Origin: Cytophagales bacterium | GTDB lineage: Bacteria > Bacteroidota > Bacteroidia > Cytophagales > Spirosomataceae | Assembly: GCA_013298025.1 (NCBI GenBank) | Contig: JAAFJE010000015.1 | Span: forward strand, 1-64,000 | Direction of reading: 5' to 3' | Length of the DNA stretch: 64,000 bases | Part shown: positions 55,954 to 64,000 of the stretch, piece after piece | Layout: each line of letters opens with the position of its first letter | Position numbering within the stretch: position 1 is the first letter of the stretch | Made by a program: the position numbers and the translations under genes | The notes under the pieces: generated by a model | What the model saw: only the letters and a program-made list of their open reading frames with translations | The model's database searches: none | What the model was told of the DNA's origin: nothing

Positions 55954-57028
55954 ATGACAAGAGACAGGTTCAATGACCTGAAAGCCAGAGTAGAGGCTTT
56001 GAGGAGGTATCTTTGACTACGATAATAAAAAATACCAGATTTCAGAATTAGAAACCATCACCCTCGACCCAGCGTTTTGGAACGACCCTAAAAAGGCCGA
56101 AAGTATCATGCGACAAATGCGTGAACTGAAATTCTGGACTGATGGCTATGACCAAACCGCTACTTTTTTAGGCGATTTAGAAACGATTTTCGAGTTTTAT
56201 GACCTAGGCGAAGCCAGTGAAGCGGAGGTAGATGAAGAGGGTAGAAAATTAGAAAATAAACTGAGTGAATTGGAGTTCCGCAAAATGATGTCGGACGAAG
56301 GCGATAATATGTCGGCTGTCTTAGAAATCAATGCAGGAGCGGGCGGCACCGAATCGCAGGATTGGGCGGCTATGCTGATGCGGATGTACCTTATGTGGGG
56401 CGAAAAAAATAACTTCAAAGTGCGTGAAGTGGACCACAACGATGGCGATGTAGCTGGTGTGAAGTCGGTAACGCTCGAAATAGATGGCAGTTTTGCGTAT
56501 GGTAATTTGAAGTCGGAAAATGGCGTGCATCGCTTGGTCAGAATTTCCCCTTTCGATTCCAACGCTCGCCGACACACTTCGTTTGCTTCGGTGTATGTAT
56601 ATCCTTTGGCCGACGATACCATCGAGATTGATGTAAACCCTGCCGATATTGAATGGGATACTTTCCGCTCGGGTGGGGCTGGTGGACAAAACGTAAACAA
56701 AGTAGAAACAGCGGTACGTCTTACCCACAAGCCTTCGGGGATTATCATTGCTTGTCAACAAGAACGCTCGCAGTTGCAAAACAAAGAAGTCGCTTTGCGT
56801 TTGTTGAAGTCGAAACTGTACCAAATCGAAATAGAAAAACGCAATGCGGCTCGTGCAGAAGTAGAGGCAGGTAAAAAGAAAATAGAGTGGGGCTCGCAAA
56901 TTAGAAGTTATGTACTAGACGACAGAAGGGTAAAAGACCATCGTACCAATTATCAAACGTCTAATACCGAAGCCGTACTCAATGGTGAAATCAACGATTT
57001 TATCAAAGCTTATTTGATGGAGCAGTGA
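55954..57028 (+). CDS. prfB: peptide chain release factor 2, programmed +1 frameshift
   Basis: ATG 55954; codon 21 is TGA (56014-56016) in AGGAGGTATCTTTGAC; +1 frame is continuous with ORF ending 57028; GGQ '[20 protein letters not shown]', SPF motif '[14 protein letters not shown]'. Confidence 0.97.
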
Positions 57029-57117: not shown

Positions 57118-58287
57118 TTGAAAGTTGAACAAAACATAGAAAGATTAAAATACTTGCTGTCATTGCTAAAAATGTCAGTTGAAGAGCTATTATCTATAAT
57201 CAGCGTAGGACTTAAAACCCCTATTACAAAGGAACAAATTTTTACAACAAATATTGAACTTGCACATTTAAAACGAATTGATAAGATTTTTAACAAAGGC
57301 ATTCACTATTATTTAGACCCAAAATCACCCGACATTTCAAAAGACGCAAGCATCTTTTTTAGGAAAACGACATTTGATGTTGACTTGAATTTAGGAGCAA
57401 GAAAAATTGTAAATCACTTTGAAGAATTTAACATTTCTCTTTCTGCCATTGCCGAACTTTCCGACGTTAAATTTGAACGACTGCTGCCCATTTTCAAAGT
57501 TAGCAACAGTCCTAAAAACGTAGCAAATGAAATTAGGCAATTAATAGCCCCAGAATTTAAAGACAAACCCAAAGAATATTTGACGGAACTAATAAAAAAG
57601 TTAGCTGAAAAAAATATTTTAGTTTTTGAATTTGTAGAAACTTGGAATAAGAAAGACAAAGCCAATATTGACGGTTTTTTTCTCAAACCAAATGTTATCG
57701 TATTAAAGAGATACCAAATTTCTTTCAAAAGAGAAATCTTTACACTTGCGCACGAATTAGGGCACTATCTTTTAGATGAAGAAGAAATAGACAAAATTGA
57801 ATATGAGGATTTAGCCAATCAAAATTTATCAAAAATTGAAAATTGGTGCAATGACTTTGCCTACTATTTTTTGAGCGGAGAATTTGAAAAAATTATTGAA
57901 ACTATTGATAACTCAACTGCTCAAAATGATTATAATATTGACTTGGTTCAACGTATTTCCGAAAAAACTCATTTAAGCAGAATAGCAATTTTTACCAAGT
58001 TGCTATTACTTAATAAAATTAGTCCAGCAAATTATAAAAAAGTCAGAAACGAATTTGAAGAAGAGTTCAGAATTAAAAATGAGGAATTAAAAAAACAAAG
58101 AGAGTCAGATAAACAAAATGGAATAAATACTGGAGGCTCGACACCCGTTCCTATAAAATCCCCTTTGCTTGTTTCTACAATTCAAACAGCATTTTATGAA
58201 GGTGTGATTAACGAATATGAGTTTTGCAAAAAGCTAAATATTAAACCCGATAAAATAGATAGTTTTCTCTATGAAAGTAGTAATTGA
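57118..58287 (+). CDS. ImmA/IrrE (M78) family metallo-endopeptidase, antitoxin-like
   Basis: zinc-peptidase motif 'HELGH' in 'IFTLAHELGHYLLDEEE'; TTG start; overlaps next CDS. Confidence 0.88.
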   Translation: MKVEQNIERLKYLLSLLKMSVEELLSIISVGLKTPITKEQIFTTNIELAHLKRIDKIFNKGIHYYLDPKSPDISKDASIFFRKTTFDVDLNLGARKIVNHFEEFNISLSAIAELSDVKFERLLPIFKVSNSPKNVANEIRQLIAPEFKDKPKEYLTELIKKLAEKNILVFEFVETWNKKDKANIDGFFLKPNVIVLKRYQISFKREIFTLAHELGHYLLDEEEIDKIEYEDLANQNLSKIENWCNDFAYYFLSGEFEKIIETIDNSTAQNDYNIDLVQRISEKTHLSRIAIFTKLLLLNKISPANYKKVRNEFEEEFRIKNEELKKQRESDKQNGINTGGSTPVPIKSPLLVSTIQTAFYEGVINEYEFCKKLNIKPDKIDSFLYESSN

Positions 58288-58846
58288 CACCAGCTCATTA
58301 TTGTCGTTGGTTCGTTATTACTTGCCATTTGACAAAAAGAAAATATTGTTTGAAATCATAAAAGCAAAGGTTGCTAATGGCCAAATTATTGCCATAGATA
58401 AAATAATCGAAGAATGCGAATACACGTCCAAAGGACTTGTCCTAGAAACGCTTTCATTTCTAAATGATAGAACCTTTAACAAAACTTATAAACTTCCGCT
58501 CAATACAGCGTTTGTACTACCACCTGCACCAGCCAAATTTTACAGAATGGTTGACAATAATTTCGTTGTCGCAGTTCAAAGAGCAAGACTTAGTGAAGCA
58601 CAATATGACGCTGTGAAAAATGACTTTATGAACTCTGCTGATATGAAAATGATTTTGACAAGTTTGAATCTTAAAATTGATAACCCAACAGAAGACATAT
58701 TTCTTGTTACAGAAGAAACAGAAGCAAGTAATGACCATAAAGTATTTAAGAAAATTCCTGCAATTTGCTCGCAGTTAGACATAACGACAATCAATATTCA
58801 GCAACTCCTTGACAAACTTGAAGGAGTGAATATTGAAATTAGATAA
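58271..58846 (+). CDS. PIN-like domain protein (DUF4411-like), putative toxin nuclease
   Basis: N-terminal 'MKVVIDTSSLLSLVRYYLPFDKKK' and 'IFLVTEETEASNDHKVFKKIPAICSQL'; 17-nt overlap with the M78 gene. Confidence 0.8.
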   Translation: MKVVIDTSSLLSLVRYYLPFDKKKILFEIIKAKVANGQIIAIDKIIEECEYTSKGLVLETLSFLNDRTFNKTYKLPLNTAFVLPPAPAKFYRMVDNNFVVAVQRARLSEAQYDAVKNDFMNSADMKMILTSLNLKIDNPTEDIFLVTEETEASNDHKVFKKIPAICSQLDITTINIQQLLDKLEGVNIEIR

Positions 58847-58854
58847 AACTATAT

Positions 58855-58972
58855 CTAACAGCAATTTGGCAAAAGCAAGGCAGATGAAAGTAATTGAATT
58901 TCTGTATTTCTTCAACATTTCTACAATATTTAGGCTGACGGATTTCAAGGCACGTTCGCCAAAATCGGCTAA
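58855..58972 (+). repeat. imperfect palindrome (attC-like element 1)
   Basis: AGC(58860-58862)/GCT(58968-58970) and TTTGGC(58865-58870)/GCCAAA(58958-58963); begins CTAACAGC right after the PIN stop codon. Confidence 0.4.
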
Positions 58973-59008
58973 GGCTCATGATAATAACGATACGACATAC
59001 AAAAAACA

Positions 59009-59944
59009 ATGGCAATTTTTGAAATCGACAAAGGGAAAGCAAAACGGGTACGACTGAGTGATTTTAAACTCGAAAAGGATTTGCAAAGACTAATTGAGGA
59101 CAATGTAGAAACGATTTTTAACTGTCTTTTTATTGCAACAGAGTTTTCGACAGGCAATATTCACTCAGGAAGAATTGACACTTTAGCACTTTCGGAAGAC
59201 AATAATCCAGTAATAATTGAATACAAAAAAGTTGCTTCATCAGACCTTATAAATCAAAGCCTTTACTATTTACATTGGATTAAAGACCATAAGGGCGACT
59301 TTCAAATTGCAGCAAATAGAGCATTAGGAAGAAATGTTGACGTTGATTGGTCAGACATAAGAGTAATTTGTTTAGCTCCTGAATACAAAAAGTATGACTT
59401 GCACGCAGTTCAAGTAATGGGAGCAAACATTGAGCTTTGGCAATACAAAATATATGAAAACGGAATTTTAAATATAGAAGAAGTTTTCAAAAGAACAACG
59501 TCAAATCAAGCCACAGAGGAACTCGTTGGCAAAAATCCTGTAATGATTGAAGCAGGAAAAAAAGCTGCCTTGACAAGAAAAACAGCGACATATACCATTG
59601 AAGAACACTTTGAAAATCTTGACGACAATATTCTTGAACTATTTAACGCCGTGCGTGACTTCATTGTCACCATAGACAGTTCAATAGAAGAAACGCCCAA
59701 GAAACATTATATTGCTTATAAAACAAGCCAGAACTTCGCTTGCTTACAGACCTATAAGAAAAAGTTGACATTGTATTTAAAGCTAAACCCAGACGAAGTA
59801 AACCCAATGCCAAGCCAAGGAAGAGACGTTAGGGGAATTGGACACTTTGGAACGGGTGACTTTGAATTGACAATTAAAGACCTAAATGACTTTGAAGAAA
59901 CGAAATATTTGATAAATGAAGCGTATAAAAACATAGGCGGATGA
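59009..59944 (+). CDS. PD-(D/E)XK nuclease-like (DUF91/NucS-like N-terminus) with DUF5655-like C-terminus
   Basis: 'GNIHSGRIDTLALSEDNNPVIIEYKKVAS' (D...ExK pattern); C-terminal 'KLTLYLKLNPDEVNPMPSQGRDVRGIGHFGTGDFELTI'. Confidence 0.8.
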   Translation: MAIFEIDKGKAKRVRLSDFKLEKDLQRLIEDNVETIFNCLFIATEFSTGNIHSGRIDTLALSEDNNPVIIEYKKVASSDLINQSLYYLHWIKDHKGDFQIAANRALGRNVDVDWSDIRVICLAPEYKKYDLHAVQVMGANIELWQYKIYENGILNIEEVFKRTTSNQATEELVGKNPVMIEAGKKAALTRKTATYTIEEHFENLDDNILELFNAVRDFIVTIDSSIEETPKKHYIAYKTSQNFACLQTYKKKLTLYLKLNPDEVNPMPSQGRDVRGIGHFGTGDFELTIKDLNDFEETKYLINEAYKNIGG

Positions 59945-59960
59945 TAAGGAAAACTACCGC

Positions 59961-60048
59961 TAACAATTGGGCTAAATTGTAAAATGCAATAGGAATAGCA
60001 CGGACTTTTATCCCAAAACCTCACCCACCGCCAAGCCTTGTTCGTTAT
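59961..60048 (+). repeat. imperfect palindrome (attC-like element 2), 5' boundary of the R-M module
   Basis: TAAC-AA-ttg-GGCT (59961-59973) pairs with AGCC-ttg-TT-c-GTTA (60034-60047); 60006-60048 shared with 62307-62349. Confidence 0.55.
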
Positions 60049-60143
60049 CGTCAACCTAAACGACAACGGTGCATACATGAAACATATTGATAAATGATAA
60101 GAAACAAGAATAGACAGACAACGATTTTAGTATCTTGGAAACG

Positions 60144-61364
60144 ATGAAAGTATTAGACACATTTGCAGGGGCAGGCGGTTTTAGTTTAGGTTTTCACCTC
60201 ACTGGACAATATGATATTATTGGTGCTATTGAATATGACCAATGGGCAGCAGATACCTTTAAATACAACCATCCTGAATCAACCGTTCTAGTTGGCGACA
60301 TACAAGAGTATAGCGAAGAGTTTTTATTGGAAACCTTCCATGACAAACCTGACATTATATTAGGTGGTCCTCCGTGTCAAGGTTTTTCAATAGCTAACAG
60401 AAAAGCTGGCGACCCTGCTGACCCGAGAAATTCATTATTTAAGGAGTTCGTAAGACTTGGAAAAATCTTTAAACCCAAAATAATGATAATGGAAAATGTT
60501 CCTAATCTAATAAAAGCAAGAACCCACGACAAAGAACTTGTGATTGATATTATCATTCAAGAACTTGAAAAGTTAGGGTATTATGTTTATCACACAATCT
60601 TAAATGCAACGGACTATGGCGTTCCTCAAATTAGAAAACGACTTATTGTTATTGCCTCAAAAGATAAATTGGATAATCCTTTTCCCGAACCAACACATTC
60701 AATCGAAAGCAACCTCAATACTTTATTCAATACTACTCTTCAAAAAACTCCGACTTTGTGGGACGCAATCTCAGATTTACCTCAAATTGAAGCAAGAGAA
60801 GGAGCAGAAGAAATGAACTATGAAGCACCCGCAAAAAATGCTTTTCAAAAGTATTTACGTGGACATGCTGATAAAGTTTATAATCACGTTGCAATGAAAC
60901 ATTCCCAAAGAATGGTTGAACGATTTGCTTCAATGAGTTGCGGAAATTCTATATCTGATGTCCCCGACCATTTAAAGCCATTTAAAAGAAATGGAAATGG
61001 GGAGTTTTCAGAAAAATTATATGACCAAAATAATAGAAGAATGCACCCCGACAGACCTTGTCATACCATCGCAGCCTCTTTTTATGCAAATTTTGTTCAC
61101 CCTTTCAAAAACAGAAATTTTACACCAAGAGAAGGAGCAAGAATTCAAACATTCCCCGATTGGTATGTATTTCAGGGAAAACCAACGGTCGTTAGTCATA
61201 AACTTTTACAACGAGAAGGTAGAGATGAAGAAAAACACCTTTGCCAATATAATCAGATTGGCAATGCGGTTCCACCACTTTTGGCAAAAGCAATAGCGGA
61301 AAATATTTTATCACAACTAACAATACAGCAAGACGAAAAATGTTTGTTCACGGAGATAATTTAA
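60144..61364 (+). CDS. DNA (cytosine-5-)-methyltransferase
   Basis: 'VLDTFAGAGGFSLGF', 'GGPPCQGFS', 'MENVPNL', 'QIGNAVPPLLAKAIAENI'; likely ATG 60144. Confidence 0.96.
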   Translation: MKVLDTFAGAGGFSLGFHLTGQYDIIGAIEYDQWAADTFKYNHPESTVLVGDIQEYSEEFLLETFHDKPDIILGGPPCQGFSIANRKAGDPADPRNSLFKEFVRLGKIFKPKIMIMENVPNLIKARTHDKELVIDIIIQELEKLGYYVYHTILNATDYGVPQIRKRLIVIASKDKLDNPFPEPTHSIESNLNTLFNTTLQKTPTLWDAISDLPQIEAREGAEEMNYEAPAKNAFQKYLRGHADKVYNHVAMKHSQRMVERFASMSCGNSISDVPDHLKPFKRNGNGEFSEKLYDQNNRRMHPDRPCHTIAASFYANFVHPFKNRNFTPREGARIQTFPDWYVFQGKPTVVSHKLLQREGRDEEKHLCQYNQIGNAVPPLLAKAIAENILSQLTIQQDEKCLFTEII

Positions 61365-62209
61365 AGCAAAAAGAATTGCATAAAGAGAAATATACAGACC
61401 AAGAAGCTAAACAGTTCCTCGCTGAAATTCGCATTGAGTATGACAAATGGAATAAAGCAAATGAAGAATTAAAAGGTCCTTTTTCTGCCACTGAAGAAGG
61501 CGACTCTGAAATCATCAATAAAAGAGTTCAACTCTTTTCCGATTATAAAGAATTTATTGACCAACAGAAATACGCTGAAAAGTTTGACTCACGTTCAAAC
61601 TTACATTCGTCAGTTTTGGAAGAATTTATGTTCTATTTGTTTAGAGATTTAGTTTATGAGTTTTCAGCGTCTGCAATTTTAGGAAAAGCTCATACTTTCA
61701 AAGATATATTTTTCAATTCAACTTCCTATAAAGAAATGGTCACAAGACCAAATGCAAAAGTTGAAAAGAAAGACCACGACTTTATTATTGGGGTAAACAT
61801 ACAAGCTAAAATGAATTGTGATGGAAGTGCCGATGCAGAATTACACAACTGGCAAATTCCAGCAGTAGCAATTGAATGTAAAACGTATCTGGATAAAACA
61901 ATGCTTGAAGGTTCGTCAACTGCTGCCGAACAATTAAAACATCGAAATCCTAACGCAATTTATATTGTAGTTGCAGAGTGGCTTAAACTGACAGAACAGG
62001 TAAACTTAAAGAAATTTAAGGTTGACCAAATCTATGTTTTGAGAAAACAAAAAAATACAGACAGAGAATATCGTTATGCTGACACCTACAAGAAAAACCC
62101 AATTTTTGAAGACGTTGTTCAGCACCTTTTTGACAAAGTTCGCAATCACTTAACTTCTGACTGGGAAGGGGGGATAAGTTACGGACTACAAAAGGGATAC
62201 TTAATGTAG
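61340..62209 (+). CDS. type II restriction endonuclease, PD-(D/E)XK (Bpu10I-like family suspected)
   Basis: 25-nt overlap with the C5 methyltransferase; 'KKDHDFIIGVNIQ...VAIECKTYLDKTMLEGSSTAAEQLK' D...ExK active-site pattern. Confidence 0.78.
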   Translation: MFVHGDNLKQKELHKEKYTDQEAKQFLAEIRIEYDKWNKANEELKGPFSATEEGDSEIINKRVQLFSDYKEFIDQQKYAEKFDSRSNLHSSVLEEFMFYLFRDLVYEFSASAILGKAHTFKDIFFNSTSYKEMVTRPNAKVEKKDHDFIIGVNIQAKMNCDGSADAELHNWQIPAVAIECKTYLDKTMLEGSSTAAEQLKHRNPNAIYIVVAEWLKLTEQVNLKKFKVDQIYVLRKQKNTDREYRYADTYKKNPIFEDVVQHLFDKVRNHLTSDWEGGISYGLQKGYLM

Positions 62210-62261
62210 CCAATGACGAAAGAAGAGCCTCCGCTGTTTAGCATAATGGCGAAACAATTCG

Positions 62262-62350
62262 TATAACAGCTTTGTAGTGGGTTTAAGAGAAGCTCTTCTA
62301 ATGATGTTTCATCCCAAAACCTCACCCACCGCCAAGCCTTGTTCATTATA
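62262..62350 (+). repeat. imperfect palindrome (attC-like element 3), 3' boundary of the R-M module
   Basis: TATAA(62262-62266)/TTATA(62346-62350) and GTAGTGGGT(62274-62282)/ACCCACCGC(62324-62332); 3' arm near-identical to element 2. Confidence 0.55.
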
Positions 62351-62416
62351 ACCTTGATTTCGGAATGTTGAAAAAGTAAATCAACTATCCGCCACGATTA
62401 ATTTGTTGAGAATACT

Positions 62417-64000
62417 ATGTTGTTGAGAAGAATATTTTTGTGTTGTGCTGTGATGCTGGGCTGTTGTTGGCTGGCCGATTTAGATGCCCTTTCCAACGAT
62501 TTGGCTTATGCCCGCAAACGACGCAAACCGCATAAGAAATCGAAAAGATATGTGCGAAAAGTAGTGGTGTCGGCCAAGCCTATTTTTTTTGATTCCTTGG
62601 CTGCCCCTCGTTTCAATATCCAAAGCAACCTTAGCGAAACGGCTTGGGTCGATAGCGTATTTGCGACCCTCAACGATGACCAAAAAATCGGACAGTTCTT
62701 CATGGCGGCGGTGCATCCCAACAACGGACAGGCTCATCTTCGACGCATCCAAGGACTGATAGACAGCTACGGCGTTGGTGGGGTTATTTTCTTTAAAAGT
62801 GACCCTTATCTGCTTGCCCAGTTTAACAACCAGTTGCAAGCCATTGCCAAAGTTCCCTTACTTACGTCTATCGACGGCGAATGGGGCTTGGCGATGCGGA
62901 TGAAATATACGATGGCTTTTCCGAAGCAAATTACCTTGGGTGCAATACAAGATAATTCCTTGATTTTCAGAATGGGACAAGAAATTGCTCGTCAATGTAA
63001 AAGACTGGGGATTCATCTCAATTTTGCTCCAGTGGTGGACATCAACAGCAACCCCAACAACCCTATTATTGGGCATCGTTCTTTTGGAGAAGTGCGGGAA
63101 AATGTAGCCGAAAAAAGTGTAGCCTATATGCACGGCATGCAACAAGAACAACTCATTGCCTGTGCCAAGCATTTTCCGGGCCACGGCGATACGCATGGCG
63201 ATTCGCACCGAACCTTGCCGCAGTTGGCCTACAATATAGAACGCCTCAAAGAAGTGGAATTGTACCCGTTCCAAAAACTGATTCAAGATTCTATCAAATC
63301 TATGATTGTTGGGCATTTACAAGTGCCTATTTACGATTGGAAACCAGCTACGCTTTCCCAAAATATTGTCACCAATTTGCTCAAAAACGAAATGGGCTTT
63401 AAAGGGCTGGTGATTACCGATGCCCTTAATATGCGAGGCGTACATACCGAAGGCTATGTGCCAGGAGGCGTTGATTTACAGGCATTTTTGGCAGGAAACG
63501 ACATTTTACTTTGTTCCGAAAATATCCCCGAAGGCATTCGTCGTATCAGAGAAGCGGTGCTATCTGGTGCTATCACACAAGCCGAGGTAGATATGCGTGT
63601 AAAAAAGATTCTACGGGCTAAATATTGGGTAGGCCTGCATCATTTTAATTACATCGAAACGCAAGGTTTACAAGCCGATTTGCATACACCCGAAGCCAGT
63701 AGCATTCGGCAGGTACTTTTCAATCATGCCATTACACTGGTCAAAGATGTACCGAATCTTGTGCCTTTACAAACAAGCAGTAAGTTGGTCAGCATCAGCG
63801 TTGATTCACACATAGGAAATAGTTTCCAACAAGCCCTTGGTACTTTTGCTTCGTTTCAACAATATGCCATTGATGGCAAAACCAATGAGCGTCATTTCAA
63901 CGATATATTACGTAAAATCGACTCTACCCAAACGGTTGTGGTGAGCATTCATCGCATTTCTAATAGTCCTTATGCCCATTTCGGCATTGGCTATGCTTTA
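62417..64000 (+). CDS. glycoside hydrolase family 3 (beta-N-acetylglucosaminidase-like), truncated by window end
   Basis: own translation from ATG 62417: 'LNDDQKIGQFFMAAVHPNNGQ', 'PLLTSIDGEWGLAMRM', 'CAKHFPGHGDTHGDSHRTLP', 'GLVITDALNMRGV'; ORF open at 64000 and so missing from the supplied track. Confidence 0.9.
   Translation, partial: MLLRRIFLCCAVMLGCCWLADLDALSNDLAYARKRRKPHKKSKRYVRKVVVSAKPIFFDSLAAPRFNIQSNLSETAWVDSVFATLNDDQKIGQFFMAAVHPNNGQAHLRRIQGLIDSYGVGGVIFFKSDPYLLAQFNNQLQAIAKVPLLTSIDGEWGLAMRMKYTMAFPKQITLGAIQDNSLIFRMGQEIARQCKRLGIHLNFAPVVDINSNPNNPIIGHRSFGEVRENVAEKSVAYMHGMQQEQLIACAKHFPGHGDTHGDSHRTLPQLAYNIERLKEVELYPFQKLIQDSIKSMIVGHLQVPIYDWKPATLSQNIVTNLLKNEMGFKGLVITDALNMRGVHTEGYVPGGVDLQAFLAGNDILLCSENIPEGIRRIREAVLSGAITQAEVDMRVKKILRAKYWVGLHHFNYIETQGLQADLHTPEASSIRQVLFNHAITLVKDVPNLVPLQTSSKLVSISVDSHIGNSFQQALGTFASFQQYAIDGKTNERHFNDILRKIDSTQTVVVSIHRISNSPYAHFGIGYAL

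Follow-up and report, generated by a model that had tools for sequence, protein, structure and literature searches.

In integrons, crossover takes place at the GTT of the recombination site. A cassette within an array thus carries the R' end of one site (n) and the R'' end of the next (n+1), and these two boxes are expected to be complementary. An insert specific to the integron integrase IntI is held to be essential for its function (PMC8138268), and integron surveys of Bacteroidota have recovered almost none (In0 elements and one complete integron in Salinibacter ruber; PMC9024848). The DNA considered here, referred to as the window, is a stretch of 64,000 nucleotides (positions 1 to 64,000, forward strand) of contig JAAFJE010000015.1 from a Cytophagales bacterium of the Spirosomataceae (assembly GCA_013298025.1). 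Between its prfB and GH3 genes, three modules of defense genes are each followed by a short element (E1, E2, and E3). The elements of this family very probably serve an integron-like gene-cassette system of Bacteroidota as attC-like recombination sites, and the system is regarded here as an integron of a new variant type, not an IntI integron. A preliminary description of the window had proposed such a system, with attC-like sites and possibly an integrase acting in trans; at the level of the system the proposal is borne out by a recombinase on another contig of the same genome (C12) and by 41 elements. No description of the system was found in the open-licence papers of PubMed Central, a scope outside which preprints and subscription journals fall, and this mode of gene capture is apparently undescribed.

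Structure of the sites and cassette boundaries

The elements were located with a detector that requires only AAC, GTT[AG], and paired arms. In most recombinase loci examined it finds arrays of 3–11 elements, compared with about 0–1 in shuffled sequences, and the elements fall into spacing classes near 118, 180, and 80 nucleotides. In an alignment of 32 elements of the 118 class (A1), the stem covaries, with a score of 0.518 (0.169 when shuffled, 0.07–0.13 when slid) and 150 double changes against 59. The right arm carries about 5 extra nucleotides before GTT (e.g., AAAAC) and the left arm almost none; the distance from the stop codon to R'' has a median of 10 nucleotides. Loops of the A1 elements hold repeated motifs like GAACTTTNGTGCT, and the 180-nucleotide class resembles the 118-nucleotide class with additional loop sequence.

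The boundaries of the cassettes lie at C^GTT. Among 40 consecutive pairs of elements, R' of one site and R'' of the next match on average at 6.15 of 7 positions, with 35 pairs at 6 or 7; permuted pairs give a mean of 3.0 (maximum 3.9 in 10,000 permutations), and the R' and R'' boxes of the same element give 3.2. The 7 nucleotides scored are not used in detection. Several pairs match at 7/7 in the arrays of the window's own genome (contigs C28, C31, and C23); contigs C12, C28, and C31 end in or beside arrays.

Short palindromes located behind genes in many copies per genome might also be miniature inverted-repeat transposable elements, repetitive extragenic palindromic-like repeats, or transcription terminators. 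This is extremely improbable: complementarity links R''(n+1) to R'(n) on the other side of the gene and not to the R' of its own element, strand and position are strict relative to the recombinase, junctions at attI-like sites fall at GTT, a T run is absent, and a search of Rfam with the window elements gave no match. For intact arrays, the cassette-boundary signature refutes such an origin.

The AAC and GTT cores, the palindrome 3' of each gene, and the cassette boundaries follow the logic of integron sites, and would thus also be compatible with the remnant of a canonical IntI integron, i.e., a cluster of attC sites lacking an integron integrase (CALIN), with IntI located elsewhere or lost. 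The elements do not conform, however, to the RYYYAAC/GTTRRRY core consensus of IntI integrons: the full R' box fits GTTRRRY in 4 of 51 cases, the GTT itself being invariant by construction of the detector. The preliminary description had rightly called the canonical cores weakly matched.

Two further arrangements were seen near single elements. At L030:1479–1521 (genome G075), the conserved 3' arm stands alone behind a gene as a perfect inverted repeat (AACAAACAAGGCTTGGCGAAA/TTTCGCCAAGCCTTGTTTGTT). On contig C23 (L003:35–455), direct repeats near an element give repetitive open reading frames on both strands.

Recombinase, attI-like site, and distribution

The tyrosine recombinase expected elsewhere in the genome is encoded at C12:2000–3625. 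The gene for this protein of 541 residues is preceded by that of a 115-residue single-stranded DNA-binding protein (SSB) and followed, near the contig end, by a PDDEXK_2 gene, an element, and a Gp49-like (HigB-type) gene. In a congener (G002), a 554-residue recombinase stands at the head of a stretch of about 19 kb, in which roughly 18 genes are co-oriented and the intergenic regions hold elements such as CTAACAGCAGTTTGGC...GCCAAGCTGCGAAACGTTAG.

The catalytic part of the recombinase is closest to IntI both by sequence and by predicted fold (PDB ID: 2A3V; IntI4), which speaks for an IntI remnant, and contains the motifs GLR, KGKKDR, HTLRH, LGH, and YTH. Against such a remnant, none of the 201 genomes of the family passes the integron integrase cut-off (TIGR02249); the best genes below it are long tyrosine recombinases near elements, and the recombinase of the window's genome reaches 216 bits compared with the required 265. 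In all Bacteroidota recombinases measured, the stretch of about 42 residues forming the additional domain of IntI is absent (64–70 residues from KGxxxR to HxLRH, compared with 106–107). In the tree, these recombinases group in a single clade (99/97) that excludes the two IntI and three Xer references, with long branches and an unsettled sister group. Given the cut-off, the insert, the clade, and the R' box, a canonical IntI remnant is very unlikely and was rejected.

The N-terminal part of about 260 residues, to which Pfam assigns no family in the recombinase of the window's genome, comprises three ββ-α-ββ-α repeats in an AlphaFold2 model (mean predicted local distance difference test score 84). 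The most probable Foldseek matches of the repeats are the SMARCAL1 HARP domain (probability 0.87, E-value 0.15) and XPB damage-recognition domains, no E-value being significant, and the sequence match to HARP (PF07443) remains below significance (E-value 0.04). These HARP-like repeats may read folded DNA. No paper joining HARP to a tyrosine recombinase was found in the open-licence PubMed Central literature. Homologues that are shorter and have fewer N-terminal repeats likewise stand at the head of arrays. The SSB gene is adjacent in 15 of 64 loci, and for this reason SSB was dropped as a universal partner. In L076 (genome G052), an open reading frame of 370 residues begins as SSB and continues as the recombinase's catalytic part, as though the N-terminal repeats had been deleted; elements still follow it.

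Behind the recombinase gene, or that of its SSB, lies a short hairpin (e.g., ATATACGCAA-TTGCGTATA) followed by 2–10 nucleotides and GTT. Such an attI-like hairpin (stem of at least 9) with GTT occurs in 27 of 64 loci, compared with 1 of 186 shuffles. Within two pairs of near-identical platforms (L184/L187 and L174/L182), the identity is 97–100% to the base before GTT and 62–70% after it, random 120-mers providing a baseline of about 60%; between G002 and Arcicella aurantiaca it falls from 92% before GTT to 63% after. Judged from sequence, this divergence at GTT is the most direct evidence for the insertion of cassettes at attI.

As a BLAST-type search with whole elements found conservation confined to the 3' arm, a covariance model (R1) was built and applied to Bacteroidota; its E-values are rough owing to a shortened calibration. 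At E ≤ 1, R1 finds 41 elements in the window's own genome (best 1e-16), 33 in G002, and 7–21 in other congeners. When public genomes were scanned for patterns with the recombinase alignment, 75 loci emerged, almost all of which bear Bacteroidota titles; the few titles of metagenome-assembled genomes from other phyla are likely misassigned. On the recombinase strand of these loci, R1 (E ≤ 1) has 95 matches: the 272 kb downstream of the gene contain 93 of them and the 583 kb upstream only 2; 35 of the 75 loci have a downstream match, and six matches on the minus strand mirror plus-strand ones, the sites being palindromic. In a single, evenly drawn set of 396 Bacteroidota genomes, the recombinase is present in 116 at E ≤ 1e-60 and elements are present in 154 at E ≤ 1e-8. 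Elements occur in 92 of the 116 genomes with the recombinase, compared with 62 of the 280 without (odds ratio 13.5, p = 1.6e-26, relatedness uncorrected). The expectation that the elements would repeatedly border different genes is thus confirmed, in the window's own genome as in the sample.

A platform would accordingly consist of a tyrosine recombinase gene, sometimes an adjacent SSB gene, an attI-like site with a short hairpin, and an array of co-oriented cassettes, each cassette usually being one gene or a small operon with a palindromic site of 118 or 180 nucleotides. One strand of the site could fold into a hairpin that the recombinase binds as single-stranded DNA, potentially with the aid of the HARP-like repeats and SSB; the enzyme would cut just 5' of GTT, and cassettes would be excised or inserted as circles, with attI preferred. 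It seems reasonably probable that the system constitutes a separate integron type across the phylum, with a HARP-fused recombinase devoid of the IntI domain and folded single-stranded sites, that about one in three Bacteroidota species possesses it, and that it is the source platform for tet(X) and other resistance cassettes. If so, a cassette system that can be detected in about 40% of the sampled Bacteroidota genomes has escaped the surveys, probably because its integrase and sites fall outside the search models. The IntI insert would then be unnecessary for cassette recombination as such, and the recognition of folded DNA would have a second solution.

The prfB–GH3 locus of the window

The insertion is flanked on the left by prfB (56108..57028, + strand; 93–94% identity in four congeners) and on the right by the gene for a GH3 glycoside hydrolase (62417..63999, + strand; 65–67% identity), which runs past the window end. 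In all four congeners GH3 directly follows prfB with non-coding DNA alone between them, and the three modules, comprising five same-strand genes, are therefore an insertion. The co-oriented modules of the preliminary description are confirmed here; the prfB–GH3 spacer is too diverged among the congeners to give base-exact junctions.

The first module encodes an M78 (IrrE-like) peptidase with a TTG start (57118..58287, + strand; PF06114, E-value 1.2e-7; weak PADLOC matches to RmrA and capP) and a DUF4411, PIN-like protein (58271..58846, + strand; PF14367, E-value 8.9e-14). The second consists of a DUF5655 protein (59009..59944, + strand; PF18899, E-value 7.6e-15), corresponding to PDC-S18 of PADLOC (E-value 6.4e-110). 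The third contains a C5 cytosine methyltransferase (60135..61364, + strand; PF00145, E-value 3.5e-70) and a Bpu10I-family restriction endonuclease (61340..62209, + strand; PF09549, E-value 3.6e-29). The true start of the methyltransferase is likely the ATG at 60144, as its homologue in L260 begins with MKVLDTF.

As first described, an element stands close behind each module, beginning about 6–53 nucleotides after the last stop codon. E1 (58847..58980, + strand) is certainly a member of the family: despite a degenerate 3' R' box, it scores 39.2 bits with R1 (E-value 1.4e-6 in the window, 1.3e-7 unfiltered in 5.5 kb, and 1.2e-4 genome-wide). E2 (59952..60056, + strand) is a probable member, weak with R1 (13.7–13.9 bits, E-values 0.4 and 0.03); its R'' (GCTAAC) and R' (CGTTAT) boxes are correct and its arms now pair poorly. 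E3 (about 62254..62361, + strand) is a possible member, with R'' GTATAAC and an R' box that has lost its G (CATTATA, compared with CGTTATA). Its 3' half is common with E2 (43 nucleotides, 62307–62349 and 60006–60048, 95% identity), and this CCGCCAAGCCTTGTTCGTTA-like 3' arm recurs, with mismatches, on contigs C23, C10, and C3 of the same genome and in relatives. An exact 20-mer scan of genome contigs gave no matches, and the palindrome detector at its threshold makes no call in the window. E2 and E3 have the look of degenerate or chimeric copies. The most fitting reading of the locus is that of a CALIN-like outlier of the system that has partly decayed, with its platform in trans on C12; of the cassette array originally proposed, the well-preserved E1 stands, and a clean array does not.

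Several points weigh against the reading of the elements as sites of a cassette system. The whole case is comparative. In the window, E3 is undetected by R1 and E2 is weak, and the R'/R'' signature is lost (E2 to E3 match at 3/7 by eye, not above chance). Folding of E1–E3 as single-stranded DNA is not significantly above dinucleotide shuffles (z from +1.4 to -1.7); their earlier characterization as imperfect palindromes is not upheld as structure, and the palindrome claim therefore depends on the family and not on the window copies. In other genomes, the element is absent both from an 87% identical homologue of the endonuclease, accompanied by its methyltransferase partner, and from an 85% identical homologue of the DUF5655 gene; modules without elements, which the preliminary description would have taken as contrary evidence, are thus found for two of the three modules. 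Beyond the window, seven detector hits of poor geometry were removed by eye before the R'/R'' comparison, and at least four of the 35 array loci supplied seeds for R1, leaving about 31 independent. In the sample of 396, 62 of the 280 genomes in which no recombinase was detected have elements and, at the threshold used, 24 of the 116 recombinase genomes lack them.

For the window, the element-free homologues of modules 2 and 3 (85–87% identity) and the weak or absent scores of E2 and E3 could point to an ordinary defense-gene hotspot filled by homologous or other recombination, in which E1 is the sole real site and E2 and E3 are unrelated or hitch-hiking repeats. This explanation appears rather unlikely: behind each of the three modules stands an element placed and oriented as in a cassette, the 3' arm of E2 and E3 recurs in the same genome and in the G002 array, and the insertion starts just after prfB and stops at E3.

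Resistance cassettes and comparison with known systems

On Acinetobacter plasmids, tet(X3) is preceded by a truncated recombinase ('XerD') with 75% identity over 238 residues to the recombinase described here; its greatest similarity is to the recombinases of the Bacteroidota arrays. In the Acinetobacter indicus plasmid NZ_CP041297.1 (L242:6690–8241), an intact attI-like site lies between 'XerD/TpnF' and tet(X3), and the left half of an element, truncated at its 3' end, follows tet(X3). The R'' of this element mismatches the R' of attI; therefore, this is not a clean single cassette. On Bacteroidota plasmids (L249, L250, L251, L252, and L254), elements lie directly 3' of tet(X2), tet(X), aadS, lnu(I), and a RelE/HTH pair, and about 100 nucleotides behind floR; the R'/R'' boundary match is 7/7 for the aadS, tet(X2), and lnu(I) cassettes. 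In a Salmonella IncC plasmid (L245:2984–3189), an element is located behind floR, beside ISVsa3; it seems that a site of the Bacteroidota type moved together with floR into this plasmid of Enterobacteriaceae. The arrangements xerD-tet(X3) (PMC7494873, PMC8635130) and tetX-catB11-IS91-XerD and aadS-XerD (PMC11194056) have been noted before, and the portions of these three papers covered here do not recognize an integron. A cassette system of Bacteroidota, if true, would explain the shuffling of tet(X), aadS, lnu(I), floR/estT, and others in the phylum, as well as the identity of the 'XerD' gene before tet(X3).

The SMARCAL1 HARP domain (PF07443; PDB ID: 4O66) is, with the XPB domains, the most probable fold match of the recombinase repeats, which differ in remaining below sequence significance (E-value 0.04; Foldseek E-value 0.15). 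The Xer or 'XerD'/TpnF genes reported beside tet(X) in the covered portions of PMC8635130, PMC7494873, and PMC11194056 share with the system the truncated recombinase before tet(X3); unlike a Xer gene, it is closest to the array recombinases of Bacteroidota and has an attI-like site and a cassette behind it. With CALIN, the window locus would have in common sites and cassettes away from an integrase; its sites are of the Bacteroidota type and only one of the three is well preserved. A CALIN of this type would show at least two recognizable sites next to cassettes, compared with one clear (E1), one weak (E2), and one known from a shared half (E3) at this locus. The IntI integrons (class 1–3 and chromosomal) resemble the system most broadly: a tyrosine recombinase adjoins an array of co-oriented one-gene cassettes, a palindromic, covarying site with AAC...GTT cores and a boundary at GTT lies 3' of each gene, an attI-like site is present, and resistance genes occur among the cassettes. 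In contrast to IntI, the Bacteroidota recombinase lacks the specific additional domain, has HARP-like N-terminal repeats and in some cases an SSB partner, and is co-oriented with its array; the R' consensus is GTTRG rather than GTTRRRY, the extra unpaired bases of the site are on one arm only, and attI is itself a short perfect hairpin.

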